From NCBI GenBank assembly GCA_025463415.1, contig JAOBWO010000267.1:1-38945 (forward strand): a DNA stretch of 38,945 nt, given 5' to 3'. Source of the DNA: Acidimicrobiales bacterium (lineage in GTDB: Bacteria > Actinomycetota > Acidimicrobiia > Acidimicrobiales > Ilumatobacteraceae). Positions within the stretch are counted from its first letter, which is position 1. Each line of letters starts with the position of its first letter. Below, piece by piece: positions 26,642 to 32,218 of this stretch. The notes under the pieces were generated by a model. That model made no database searches and had not been told where the DNA came from. It saw only the letters and a program-made list of their open reading frames with translations. The translations under genes were made by a program, and so were the position numbers.

Positions 26642-27661
26642 GTGCCAGACGCAACCCGAGAGCCCGAGTTCGATGTGGCCGAGTCCGCTGTGGCCGAGTT
26701 CGATGTCGTCGGCATCGGCAACGCGCTGGTCGATGTCATCGCCCACGCAGACGAAGCGTTCATCGCTCGGGAGTCACTGGTCAAGGGCTCGATGACGCTC
26801 ATCGAGACCGAGCGCGCGGTGTCGCTGTACAGGTCGCTCGGATCGGCCGTCGAGATGAGTGGCGGCTCGGCGGCGAACACGATGTGTGGCGTCGCCTCCT
26901 TCGGCGGGCGCGCCGCGTACATCGGCAAGGTGTGTGACGACGAGCTCGGTCAGGTCTTCGGTCACGACCTCCGTGCCGTGGGCATCACGTTCCGCCCGGG
27001 CGCTCCGGAGGCGGACACGCCGACAGGCCGTTGCATCATCGTTGTCACGCCCGATGCGGAGCGGACGATGAACACCTACCTCGGTGTGTCGTCGCTGCTG
27101 TGCCCGCCCGACATCGATGCAGCCACTGTCGCGGCCGGCAAGGTGCTCTACATGGAGGGCTACCTGTACGACCGGCCCGCGGCGAAGGAAGCGTTCCGTG
27201 CGGCCGCACGCATCGCCCACGCGCACGGTCGGGAGGTGTCGCTGACCCTGAGCGACGCATTCTGCGTCGACCGCCACCGCGACGACTTCCGGGGCCTCGT
27301 CGCCGACGAAGTCGACATCCTGTTCGGCAACGAAGACGAGCTCACCTCTCTCTACGAGGTCGACGACTTCGATACAGCCGTCGCTGCTGTGCGGCGTGAC
27401 TGCGCCCTCGCCGTCATCACCCGCGGCGCCAGCGGCTCCGTCATCGTCACCGGTGACGGTGTCATCACGGTCCCGGCAGAAGCCGTCCATCGTGTGCTCG
27501 ACACCACGGGTGCAGGAGACCTCTTCGCGTCTGGGTTCCTGTACGGCTACACCAACGGCATGTCGCTGCCGGAGTGCGGTCGACTCGGCTCCGTCGCCGC
27601 TGCCGAGGTGATCTCCCACGTCGGCGCCCGACCGCTCGTCGAGCTCCACAAGCTGGCGTGA
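26642..27661 (+). CDS. PfkB-family carbohydrate/nucleoside kinase (adenosine-kinase-like)
   Basis: VVGIGNALVDVIAHAD...MSGGSAANTMCGVASFGGRAAYIGKVCDDELG...DTTGAGDLFASGFLYGYTNG. Confidence 0.88.
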   Translation: MPDATREPEFDVAESAVAEFDVVGIGNALVDVIAHADEAFIARESLVKGSMTLIETERAVSLYRSLGSAVEMSGGSAANTMCGVASFGGRAAYIGKVCDDELGQVFGHDLRAVGITFRPGAPEADTPTGRCIIVVTPDAERTMNTYLGVSSLLCPPDIDAATVAAGKVLYMEGYLYDRPAAKEAFRAAARIAHAHGREVSLTLSDAFCVDRHRDDFRGLVADEVDILFGNEDELTSLYEVDDFDTAVAAVRRDCALAVITRGASGSVIVTGDGVITVPAEAVHRVLDTTGAGDLFASGFLYGYTNGMSLPECGRLGSVAAAEVISHVGARPLVELHKLA

Positions 27662-29259
27662 TGGAGCCGGTGTCGTCGGTTGCCCGGGCGTGGCTCGCTG
27701 CGGAGCCGGACGACGACGTCCGCATCGAACTGGCGCGGTTGATCGACGGTCCACAGGACGTGCTCGCGGCACGGTTCGAGGGGCGTCTGCAGTTCGGCAC
27801 CGCCGGCCTGCGCGGTGAGATGGGTGCCGGCCCGCTGCGGATGAACCGACTCGTCGTTCGCCAGGCCGCCGCCGGCCTCGGCCGGTACGTGCTCGACCAC
27901 TGGAGCGACGCCGCCGAGCGAGGGATCATCATCGGCTTCGATGCGCGCCGCAAGAGCAACGACTTCGCGATGGACACGGCGCGGGTGCTGGCGGACATGG
28001 GCGTGCGTGCGCTGCTGCTGCCGTCGGCGCTGCCGACCCCGGTGCTGGCCTGGAACATCCTCGAGCACGACGCAGTCGCCGGCGTCGTCGTGACCGCGAG
28101 CCACAACCCGCCAGCGGACAACGGCTACAAGGTGTTCCTCGGCGACAGCGCGCAGATCGTGCCGCCGCACGACATCGGCATCGCCGCGTGCATCGACATG
28201 TTCGACCCCTGCACGGTGCCACTCGCGCCGAGTGATCATCCGCTCATCGTCCGCCTCGACGGAACGCCTCTGGAGCGGTACCTCGCCTCGGTCCCGGCTG
28301 CTCGGTTGCGTCCCGAGCTCCCCGGTGTGCCCGTCGCCTACACCGCGATGCACGGCGTCGGTGGCGCCACCTTGGCGGCTGCGTTCGAGCGCGCCGGATT
28401 GCCCGCTCCGTTCGTCGTGGCGGAGCAGCAGGAACCGGACGGCACGTTCCCGACGGTGTCCTTCCCGAACCCGGAGGAGCCCGGCGCGATGGATCTGCTC
28501 CTCGCCCGTGCCGCGGAGACGGGAGCGTTGCTGGCCATCGCCAACGATCCCGATGCCGATCGGCTCGGTGCCGCGATCCCGACTCCGGCCACGGCCACCG
28601 AGCCCGGTGGCTGGCGGCGCCTGACCGGTGACGAGATCGGTTGGCTGCTCGGCGATCACATCCTCCGCCACACCAGTGGTGACGATCGCCTCGTCGTCAC
28701 CACGCTCGTGTCCTCGTCGTTGCTCGGCCGGCTGGCGGCAGCGCACGGCGTGCACTTCGCGGAGACCTACACGGGGTTCAAGTGGATCGGGCGCACCGCA
28801 CTCGATCACCCCGACCTCCGCTTCGTGTTCGGCTACGAGCAGGCACTCGGCTACCTCGTGTGCCGGCAGCCGCTCGACAAGGACGGCATCACGGCCGCCG
28901 TGCTGCTGTCCGAGGTCGCTGCGCTCGCGGCGTTCGAAGGCGTCACCCTGCAGGATCGGCTCGACGATCTCGCCGTACGCTTCGGCCGCCACGTCACGGC
29001 CGAGCTGTCGATCCGCCTGGATCCCGTCGACGCCGCAGCGAAGGTCGCCGCGATGCGCGCCACCCCACCGACCGAGGTCGTCGGTTGGCCGGTCACCGGC
29101 GTGGAGTGGTACGAAGAAGCCGGCCTGCTGCGCCTCTGGCTCGACGACGTCCGCCTGCAGATCCGCCCGAGTGGCACCGAGCCCAAGGTCAAGCTCTACG
29201 GGGAAGCGATCGGCTCCGACCCCGCGCCGCTCCTCCAAGCCCTCGCCCACCTCCTCTGA
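27661..29259 (+). CDS. Phosphoglucomutase/phosphomannomutase (PmmB-like)
   Basis: LQFGTAGLRGEMGAGPLRMN; VVVTASHNPPADNGYKVF; ANDPDADRLGAAIP; RIQIRPSGTEPKVKLY-type C-terminus; start overlaps previous stop (TGATG). Confidence 0.93.
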   Translation: MEPVSSVARAWLAAEPDDDVRIELARLIDGPQDVLAARFEGRLQFGTAGLRGEMGAGPLRMNRLVVRQAAAGLGRYVLDHWSDAAERGIIIGFDARRKSNDFAMDTARVLADMGVRALLLPSALPTPVLAWNILEHDAVAGVVVTASHNPPADNGYKVFLGDSAQIVPPHDIGIAACIDMFDPCTVPLAPSDHPLIVRLDGTPLERYLASVPAARLRPELPGVPVAYTAMHGVGGATLAAAFERAGLPAPFVVAEQQEPDGTFPTVSFPNPEEPGAMDLLLARAAETGALLAIANDPDADRLGAAIPTPATATEPGGWRRLTGDEIGWLLGDHILRHTSGDDRLVVTTLVSSSLLGRLAAAHGVHFAETYTGFKWIGRTALDHPDLRFVFGYEQALGYLVCRQPLDKDGITAAVLLSEVAALAAFEGVTLQDRLDDLAVRFGRHVTAELSIRLDPVDAAAKVAAMRATPPTEVVGWPVTGVEWYEEAGLLRLWLDDVRLQIRPSGTEPKVKLYGEAIGSDPAPLLQALAHLL

Positions 29260-29344
29260 CCCCGCGGTTCCGCGCACCCCGCGGTTCCGCGCAAGGTCCG
29301 GCCCCCTACACGGCCGTCTTTCCTGCGAACTCTTGCAAGCGCGA
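29260..29344 (-). repeat. Dispersed intergenic repeat, copy A (inverted relative to B and C), with a 17-bp tandem duplication
   Basis: CCCCGCGGTTCCGCGCA twice in tandem (29260-29276, 29277-29293), then ...TTTCCTGCGAACTCTTGCAAGCGCGA; aligns to the reverse complement of B and C. Confidence 0.85.
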
Positions 29345-30256
29345 ACGCATGCGGTGGATGTTCACGACCTGGCGACCGCACGATGTGAGGTCGCGCAGCT
29401 CCAGCTCGTCGAAGCGAAGGATCCGCCAGCCGATCTCGTCGCACGCCCGGTCGCGCCTGCTGTCCTTCCGGGCTCGTTGGTCTCCACTGTGCCACCACGT
29501 CGCACCGGGCTCGAGGCCGAGCCGGACGCTGGGCCACGCAGCATCGAGGTGGATGGTCTCCCCATTGAGCAGCGTCAACGGGAACTGTCGGTCAGGGTCG
29601 GGTAGCCCGAGCTCGACGACCTTCGCGATGAGGTCGATCTCCAGGCTGCTCTGCGCAGGACGCGGACGTTCGATCGCCTTCTCCAGCCACCGCTCGAGCC
29701 GTGTGACGCCGCTGCGGCCCTGCCGTCGCACTGCGTGCAGGTACACGTCCGCCTCGGCGGGAGTGATCAGGCGCTTGAGCCACATCTGCTCCGCGATCTT
29801 CTCCAGTCGTACGTCGCTGGTGGTTGCCGCGCATCGGAACAACGCTCGAAGGGGCGACGCGACGATGCGGCCGTCGGCGAGCTCGCGCCGATCGGACACC
29901 ATGCGCCAGGAACTGCGGGTCGAACGTGCCCAGCTCGGCAGCTTCGGGTCACGGCCGTCCGGCACCATCACCTCGAGCACCGTCGCGGGAACGCACGTCA
30001 CCCCGTACTGGCGCGCCGCCGTCATTCCCGACACGAACCCTGAGGCACCGGCGTAGAGGCTGAGGGCCATCACTCGCGACTCCACGGTCTCGGGCATTCC
30101 GACCAGCCGCTTGACCTTGGGGAGCTCGAGCTGGAAGAGACCGATGTCGACGGCGCGCTTCAACTGGCGTTGGCTGAGATGTTCGAGCAGCTGCTTGTTC
30201 GACGCGATGCCGAGCTGGCGTCCGAACAGGTGGAGCATCGCCGGTGAGAGGATCAT
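29306..30256 (-). CDS. AbiEi-antitoxin-like protein with DUF559/Vsr-like C-terminal domain, 316 aa
   Basis: N-terminal AbiEi-like wHTH region; C-terminal TLLNGETIHLDAAWPSVRLGLEPGATWWHSGDQRARKDSRRDRACDEIGWRILRFDELEL resembles DUF559. Confidence 0.65.
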   Translation of the reverse strand: MILSPAMLHLFGRQLGIASNKQLLEHLSQRQLKRAVDIGLFQLELPKVKRLVGMPETVESRVMALSLYAGASGFVSGMTAARQYGVTCVPATVLEVMVPDGRDPKLPSWARSTRSSWRMVSDRRELADGRIVASPLRALFRCAATTSDVRLEKIAEQMWLKRLITPAEADVYLHAVRRQGRSGVTRLERWLEKAIERPRPAQSSLEIDLIAKVVELGLPDPDRQFPLTLLNGETIHLDAAWPSVRLGLEPGATWWHSGDQRARKDSRRDRACDEIGWRILRFDELELRDLTSCGRQVVNIHRMRSRLQEFAGKTAV

Positions 30257-30299
30257 GCTCCACTGAGTGCTGTGAGCCGGCCAGAACGGAAAACGCGGA

Positions 30300-30369
30300 T
30301 CGCGCTTGCAGAAGTTTGCAGGAAAGGATGCGCTCTGAGGGGCTGGAAGTTGCTCGGAACCGCGAGGGG
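30300..30369 (+). repeat. Dispersed intergenic repeat, copy B
   Basis: TCGCGCTTGCAGAAGTTTGCAGGAAAGGATGCGCTCTGAGGGGCTGGAAGTTGCTCGGAACCGCGAGGGG, just downstream of upp. Confidence 0.85.
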
Positions 30370-30376
30370 AGAATGG

Positions 30377-31009
30377 TCAGGCGGCGCCGAACTGGCGGTC
30401 GCCGGCGTCGCCGAGGCCGGGGACGATGTACGCGTTCTCGTTGAGCCGTTCGTCGATGGAGGCGGTGTAGATGATCAGGTCGAGGTCGGTGGTGCGGAGG
30501 AAGTCGAGGCCTTCGGGCGCGGCCAGGGCGCAGACGACGATGATCGGCCCGGTCGCACCGGCGTCCACCAGCAGGCGGCACGTGTGGGCCAGCGAGCCGC
30601 CGGTGGCGAGCATCGGATCGAGCACGATGCAGACCCGGTTCTCGAACGATTCCGGCAGCTTGTTGACGTACGGCTTCGGCTCGAAGGTCTCCTCGTCGCG
30701 ACTGATCCCGATGAAGCCAACGTCTGCCGTCGGGAGCAGGACCTGCGCGGCGTTGAGGAATCCGAGTCCGGCGCGCAGGACCGGCACCACGATCGGCTGG
30801 GTGGACAGCACTCGGCCGGTGGTCTCTTGGATCGGCGTCCGCACGGACACCTCATGGGTCGGCAGGTTCCGGGTCGCTTCGACGATGAGCAGCGTTCCGA
30901 TCCGCTCCAGCTCCTGGCGGAACACGTTGTTCGGCGTCGCTTCGTCGCGAACCTTGGTGAGTGACGCGGCGGCCAGGGGGTGTTCGACGAGGTGGACGGC
31001 GACGGGCAT
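30377..31009 (-). CDS. upp: Uracil phosphoribosyltransferase
   Basis: MPVAVHLVEHPLAAASLTKVRDEATPNNVFRQELERIGTLL...PVLRAGLGFL...VCIVLDPMLATGGSLAHTCRLL. Confidence 0.96.
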   Translation of the reverse strand: MPVAVHLVEHPLAAASLTKVRDEATPNNVFRQELERIGTLLIVEATRNLPTHEVSVRTPIQETTGRVLSTQPIVVPVLRAGLGFLNAAQVLLPTADVGFIGISRDEETFEPKPYVNKLPESFENRVCIVLDPMLATGGSLAHTCRLLVDAGATGPIIVVCALAAPEGLDFLRTTDLDLIIYTASIDERLNENAYIVPGLGDAGDRQFGAA

Positions 31010-31063
31010 CCGCTCATCTTGCCAGGTCGTCGCGTTTGGTCCGAAAGGGCCGCCGAACCGGCC

Positions 31064-31130
31064 GCGCTTGCAGAAGTTCGCAGGAAGAAGCGCGCCCTGG
31101 GGGGCTTGGAGTTGCGCGGAACCGCGGGGT
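31064..31130 (+). repeat. Dispersed intergenic repeat, copy C
   Basis: GCGCTTGCAGAAGTTCGCAGGAAGAAGCGCGCCCTGGGGGGCTTGGAGTTGCGCGGAACCGCGGGGT, just downstream of add. Confidence 0.85.
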
Positions 31131-31141
31131 GGTGAGGGTTC

Positions 31142-32218
31142 TCAGATGCCGAGGGTGTGCTCGGCACGGAGGAGGGCATAGCGCGGCTTGATCAGGCCGT
31201 TGATGATCCGCAGGCGCTCCGGGAACGGTGCGAACGCGCTCTTCATCGCGTTGACCGTGAGCCACTCCATGTCCTCGAGGCCCCACCCGAACGCCTCGTT
31301 GAGCTCGATCATCTCGTGCGACATCGACGTCGCGCTCATCAGCCGGTTGTCGGTGTTGACCGTGACCCGGAACCGCAGGCGGCGCAGCATGCCGATCGGG
31401 TGATCGGCGATGGACGCGCACACGCCGGTGCCGACGTTTGAGGTGGGGCACAGCTCCAGCGGGATCCGGCGGTCACGGATGTACGCGGCCAGGCGGCCGA
31501 GCGTCTCGTCCCCGCGGGAGCCGGTGATGTCGTCGACGATGCGCACGCCGTGGCCGAGTCGTTCGCCACCGCACCACTGCACGGCCTCCCAGATGGAGGG
31601 CAGGCCGAACGCTTCCCCCGCGTGGATCGTGGAGTGGAAGTTCTCGCGCTGCACGTGCTGGAACGCGTCGAGGTGACGTGTCGGTGGGTAGCCGGCCTCG
31701 GCGCCGGCGATGTCGAAGCCGACCACGCCGCGGTCGCGCCAGTTGACGGCCAGCTCGGCGATCGCCAGCGACCGCGCGGCGGTGCGCATCGCGGAGCAGA
31801 TCGCGTAGATGGTGAGGTCGGTGCCGGCCGAGCCGCGGGCGAAGCCGTCGAGCACGGCTTGGACGACCTCGTCGAGGGTGAGTCCGGCGTCGGTGTGCAG
31901 CTCGGGGGCGAACCGCACCTCGGCGTAGACGACCCCGTCGGCGGCGAGGTCGACCGCACACTCATAGGCCACGCGCTCGATCGCGTCGCGGTGCTGCATC
32001 ACGCCGCACGTGTGCGCGAACGTCTCGAGGTAGAGGACGAGGTCGTTGCGCTTGGCCCCGCGGTTGAACCAGCTGCTCAGCTCGGCGGCGTCGTGCGAGG
32101 GCAGCGCGGTGTAGCCGTACTCGTCGGCGAGCTCGATCACCGTCGACGCGCGCAGGCCGCCATCGAGGTGGTCGTGCAGCAGGGCCTTGGGGGCGCGCCG
32201 GATGAGGTCGTGGATCAC
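31142..32218 (-). CDS. add: Adenosine deaminase
   Basis: [81 protein letters not shown] start overlaps preceding gene stop. Confidence 0.95.

Follow-up and report, generated by a model that had tools for sequence, protein, structure and literature searches.

The window analysed here, a stretch of 38,945 nt corresponding to contig C268 of G000, a MAG of 4.7 Mb, contains a 68-nt REP/MITE-like repeat, two inverted units of which bracket a gene whose product joins an AbiEi-like DNA-binding domain to a nuclease domain of the EDxHD/Vsr type. This nuclease is probably the cognate enzyme of the repeat, which would make the two comparable to a REPtron, with the spread and homogenisation of the repeat brought about by an AbiEi-EDxHD nuclease in place of an HUH/RAYT transposase. 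Pairwise comparison in the window showed three copies with 76-82% identity over 67-69 nt, located where the original prediction had placed them, and the 20-mer inner block CTTGCAGAAGTTCGCAGGAA occurred three times in the window at ≤3 mismatches compared to 0.00 times in shuffles. Unit 1 (29277..29343, plus strand; type A, model positions 2-68) is the left arm of the bracket and begins 18 nt past the stop (29259) of a plus-strand phosphomannomutase/phosphoglucomutase gene (27658..29259; Pfam and gene call), which is the left neighbour of the nuclease gene. In tandem to unit 1 lies a partial repeat of 17 nt (29260..29276, plus strand) that comprises the left end only (CCCCGCGGTTCCGCGCA), is identical to the unit left end at 17/17 positions and also corresponds to D19 among the direct repeats and I11 among the inverted ones. 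The right arm, unit 2 (30301..30367, minus strand), is approximately 10 nt past the stop of the right neighbour, upp (30377..31009, minus strand; Pfam). Unit 3 (31063..31129, minus strand) is a single copy approximately 13 nt past the stop of add, encoding adenosine deaminase (31142..32218, minus strand; gene call, with Pfam on 31142-32194). The three units have the same sense relative to the phosphomannomutase gene, upp and add respectively. Copies had been expected at the 3′-ends of minus-strand genes, which was the case for upp and add; copy 1 follows the phosphomannomutase gene, which is on the plus strand, and at the same time overlaps the 3′-end of the AbiEi-like gene. Similarly, two direct copies do lie around upp as had been described, but the key arrangement is that of inverted copies 1 and 2 around the AbiEi-like gene. 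That bracket, and its generality, had been overlooked.

The bracketed gene (29306..30256, minus strand) encodes a protein of 316 amino acids, the domains of which were assigned by PADLOC, PDB profile, an AlphaFold (AF2) model (pLDDT 86) and Foldseek. The N-terminal part is AbiEi-like (PADLOC AbiEi 2e-9; Foldseek match to the AbiEi structure 6y8q) and the homing endonuclease I-Bth0305I is a relative of the C-terminal domain (PDB profile 3r3p, E=2e-4; Foldseek 3r3p_B, TMt 0.76). This domain has a Vsr-like nuclease fold with the E, D, H and D residues of the EDxHD family, and the window protein retains the catalytic-motif residues E206, D238, H256, D265 and R268. Among 15 relatives the motif residues D, E, H, D and R were invariant; the E of SxxE was kept in 12, and E was replaced by Q in three (L150, L151 and L155). 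Unit 1 overlaps the final 38 nt of the gene, such that its inner end encodes the C-terminus RLQEFAGK in antisense. As the neighbours are the phosphomannomutase gene and upp, there is no AbiEii toxin gene beside the nuclease gene and the bicistronic organisation of AbiE is absent. At least seven AbiEi-EDxHD genes were found in G000 (L157, L154, L148, L160 and matches in C335, C207 and C474).

BLAST analysis of G000 revealed about 20 clear copies of the window repeat. A sequence-only model, R1, built from 32 units, matched G000 at least 50 times, G005 37 times and G004 10 times, the last two being sister MAGs placed in the Ilumatobacteraceae by synteny and search kinship. In the other members of the genus the R1 model gave weak, chance-like matches only. 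A pattern scan of about 85,000 GTDB species found nothing outside the three species except one match in coding DNA, and the matches beyond these genomes were rejected as due to chance. The suggestion of an undescribed REP/MITE-like intergenic family was therefore borne out by a multicopy repeat confined to three species, with presence and absence at orthologous sites. That local duplication or chance accounts for the copies, for which their proximity to each other is the sole support, can be practically dismissed given at least 50 genomic matches, clustering at 3′-ends and an expectation of 0.00 in shuffles.

Alignment of the units was near-gapless over 68 nt and showed CCCCGCGGTTCCGCGCAA, a variable core around CCCCCAGAGCGC and then CTGCRAACnnnnGCAAGCGCG. 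A shorter variant, type B, has the left end and core of type A and ends in ACGCGGAGAACYG, a repetition of its left end in inverted form; type B thus has conserved terminal inverted repeats, as do MITEs, and paired type A elements share this feature. A single type A unit is not self-palindromic, unlike most other bracket families, and type A units are frequently paired head to head to form hairpins of about 160 nt (-77 to -130 kcal/mol). Exactly 13 nt separated the units in 13 of 19 head-to-head pairs, and this spacer length was kept although the spacer sequence varied (e.g. pairs L071, L075 and L112). Covariation between paired partner units was also sought and was weak, since the complementarity of true partners exceeded that of shuffled ones only slightly (p=0.08 and 0.16).

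Of the 62 sites that could be classified across the three genomes, 34 were convergent, 25 tandem and 3 divergent, and two more were inside called genes. Convergent intergenic regions accounted for 22% of intergenic bases (p=3e-8) and divergent regions for 38% (p=1e-9); these p-values are optimistic as orthologous sites were counted separately. Sites lay a median of 8 nt from the closest stop codon (90th percentile 34 nt). A strict sense orientation appeared strong at first look and was dropped, since convergent sites always count as sense and the single copies at tandem sites were 13 sense and 9 antisense. Integron attC-like sites were considered because of the position of the units after stops, and were rejected as no core-site motif was seen by eye and the flanking genes are syntenic housekeeping genes. 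As well as the RLQEFAGK tail of the window nuclease, the repeat adds a protein tail to an unrelated gene in G005, where a unit (L109:291-356, gene 319-1587) encodes the aminotransferase C-terminus SRLQEFAAERAL in antisense. One convergent intergenic space (L090 in G000, C427; L119 in G005, C341) carries a type B unit in one of these two species and a type A unit of opposite orientation in the other, which represents independent use of one site.

Position next to stop codons, a preference for convergent sites and the strong hairpins of paired units would also be expected of bidirectional transcription terminators or mRNA 3′-end elements maintained at gene ends by selection. On neither strand did the folding energy of a single unit surpass that of shuffles, RNAalifold found no consensus structure in the unit alignments, covariation in the type B terminal repeat was lower than in shuffled controls and there was no match to the curated Rfam models. 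The weak folding of single units and the low type B covariation indicate that conserved sequence, rather than conserved pairing, is kept. A folded RNA element in the repeat family is thus unsupported, and the transcript 3′-end role that had been offered as one alternative was abandoned in the light of this and of the lack of a clear sense bias. Units are moreover missing in sister species at orthologous genes, and selection at gene ends leaves the bracketing of one gene family unexplained, so that a terminator function is very improbable.

Comparison of orthologous loci revealed both filled and empty sites. Unit 1 is orthologous in G005 and G004. The orthologues of L071, L072, L074 and L075, together with the add-upp site of unit 3, were filled in G000 and G005 and empty in G004, whereas L078 was filled in G000 and empty in G005, and L085 was filled in G000 and empty in G004. 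No target-site duplication was established, as the intergenic sequence around the empty sites was too diverged to define one. In G001, a repeat-free member of the genus, upp and the phosphomannomutase gene are convergent with stops 26 nt apart and lack both repeat and nuclease gene; in G000 1117 nt separate the two stops and hold a unit-gene-unit arrangement, the order of which is the same in G005 and G004. This comparison suggests a gene gain at the upp-phosphomannomutase locus.

The cores of the units were found to be species-specific. Among type A units, 17 of 26 in G005 and 1 of 33 in G000 had the core CACGTTTTC, a difference that held at orthologous sites too, and 5 of 7 in G004 had the core GCGMAGGTYCCGG. 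At shared sites the unit ends retained some locus-specific letters while the core followed the species. Orthologous units had a core identity of 58% and about 85% identity at their ends, and the 4-fold sites of upp and add diverged by 27%. Such species-specific cores are the product of concerted evolution or repeated replacement.

Filled and empty sites, and the conserved terminal inverted repeats of type B without RNA covariation, are also what would be seen with ordinary MITEs that a transposase, itself undetected, moves in trans, with the AbiEi-nuclease gene as a passenger or stabilising cargo. The units resemble MITEs in being short, non-coding and dispersed with inverted ends; neither a parent transposase nor a target-site duplication was identified for the window family. 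A search for full-length IS with matching ends using the pattern RGTTCTCCGCGT gave type B sites and a few isolated matches, and no transposon. RAYT/Y1_Tnp (PF01797) was found in none of five genus genomes and was positive in five control genomes. Since a trans-mobilised MITE would also have to explain why one gene family is bracketed in many genomes by repeats of completely different sequence, we regard this origin as rather unlikely.

The G000 nucleases examined with full flanks had different bracket repeats from one another. A degraded paralogue (C206, L148) is bracketed by a second, unrelated repeat, and the flanks of every relative were therefore scored for their best inverted match, with an IR score of ≥20 taken as a bracket. 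In the genus, 17 of 28 scored nuclease genes reached this threshold (20 after the correction of three gene boundaries); the 28 include orthologues and represent about 12 independent groups. None of 201 ordinary genes was bracketed, and in a second control set the figure was 1/255, the sole bracketed gene being one that adjoins a nuclease gene and shares its repeat. In a draw from the class Acidimicrobiia, 21 of 29 nuclease relatives reached 20 and 8 failed, while 0/25 neighbouring genes scored ≥18. Outside the class the association was weaker, with 6 of 15 relatives from other Actinomycetota bracketed and 9 failing. Flanks paired across loci, as background, reached 20 in 0.7% of cases. Numerous bracket arms were near-perfect palindromes, e.g. 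GCGTGAACAAACTGCGGAACTATTCCGCAGTTTGTTCACGC in G027.

Further copies in their own genome were found for 20 of 22 bracket families tested, the window family included; the brackets of L152 and L160 were not dispersed. Match counts for these families take in both strands of palindromes. For each of ten class bracket families, the matches listed were all from the genome of origin. The 24 copies examined in the complete genome G027 comprised 13 convergent, 8 tandem and 3 divergent ones, and none was inside a gene.

The main rival to the nuclease as agent is that the palindromic repeats spread by other means and are used as safe landing sites by a selfish AbiEi-EDxHD homing endonuclease, which would cut the centre of a paired element, copy itself there and so come to be bracketed. 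EDxHD is indeed a homing-endonuclease family, the I-Bth0305I dimer binds nearly 60 bp (PMC3943268), and the window nuclease gene occupies the position of the 13-nt loop in other paired elements. A homing parasite would be expected in many copies within one repeat family, whereas the several nucleases of a genome have different families; the arms of most other families are complete palindromes and not halves; and the search for RAYT revealed no other mobiliser. We therefore consider a parasite of independently spreading repeats unlikely, although less so than the other alternatives.

We infer instead that the nuclease acts on the repeat by binding, cleavage and repair-driven copying. The winged-helix domain of AbiEi is what binds inverted repeats in the promoter of its own gene (PMC3985639), and the I-Bth0305I target is acted on by a dimer (PMC3943268). 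In the proposed mechanism, the AbiEi-type winged-helix domain would bind the palindromic repeat and the EDxHD domain would nick or cut it. Repair from other copies would then spread the repeat into intergenic sites at gene ends, take the nuclease gene with it where two copies flank that gene, and homogenise the copies within a genome to give species-specific cores. Such recognition, cutting and repair would account for the bracket, the dispersal and the tendency to one repeat per nuclease, as well as for placement where insertion is harmless and for the species-specific cores.

REPs are intergenic palindromes, mostly at convergent or tandem sites near 3′-ends and present as singles or inverted pairs, and RAYT genes are flanked by REPs or TIRs, the bracketed gene being specific to its own repeat (PMC3733652, PMC8266576). 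The window family is likewise intergenic, lies near 3′-ends at convergent and tandem sites, occurs as singles and inverted pairs and brackets a gene with its own repeat; the placement of the units alone is equally that of RAYT REPs (PMC3733652). The system differs in that the bracketed gene encodes an AbiEi-EDxHD nuclease and not an HUH tyrosine transposase, and in that REPs of REPtrons are palindromes of 20-40 nt with a tag, whereas bracket repeats here are 40-70 nt or, in the window family, 68-nt half-units that are not self-palindromic. No GTAG/CGTC tag was noticed on inspection of the 68-nt consensus. The system thus works like a REPtron but fails its defining tests, having no HUH transposase and no tag seen.

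The nuclease shares with I-Bth0305I a nuclease domain by profile and fold (3r3p) and the conserved E, D, H and D, and differs in being fused to AbiEi, free-standing between housekeeping genes and bracketed by repeats rather than located in an intron or intein. A winged-helix domain at the N-terminus and the AbiEi fold as a whole (6y8q, 1zel) are common to it and to type IV antitoxins and Rv2827c, which differ from it in lacking the C-terminal nuclease domain and, for AbiEi, in adjoining an AbiEii toxin gene. An association of AbiEi, DUF559, Vsr or homing endonucleases with palindromic, REP or inverted repeats was not found in the literature searched, which covered few subscription journals and was judged from titles, abstracts and term counts.

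HUH transposases (RAYTs) are generally regarded as a requirement of REP-like palindromes, and to our knowledge some REP-like families have no known enzyme. There is about an even chance that AbiEi-EDxHD nucleases are an unrecognised dedicated class, widespread in Actinomycetota, each co-evolving with a genome-specific palindromic family that it spreads and homogenises by cleavage and repair, i.e. REPtrons without an HUH transposase; the chance that this class of enzymes merits a separate name is fair. If this is true, a second, unrelated enzyme class would account for palindromic repeats in Actinomycetota without RAYTs, and a function would be given to a large family labelled AbiEi or DUF559 and often counted as toxin-antitoxin or phage defence. 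It would also be a case in which concerted evolution driven by cleavage can be tested on dispersed repeats. As the probable target of each nuclease stands on both sides of its gene, specificity is directly testable.

Two further observations were made on the bracket repeats. The repeat that brackets the L148 paralogue (CGGTTCTTTGCACCCCTCGGACCCC..GGGGTCCGAACTGCCACCAAGTTCGG) was also present singly after a stop codon in G005, and at L178 (G005:C28:10805-10858) it occupies the site that holds a 68-nt unit in G000. Additionally, GGGCGCG(A/G)TT or a similar stretch was common to otherwise different arms from several genera (L134, L135, L136, L252, L253 and L254), and is possibly a common recognition core.
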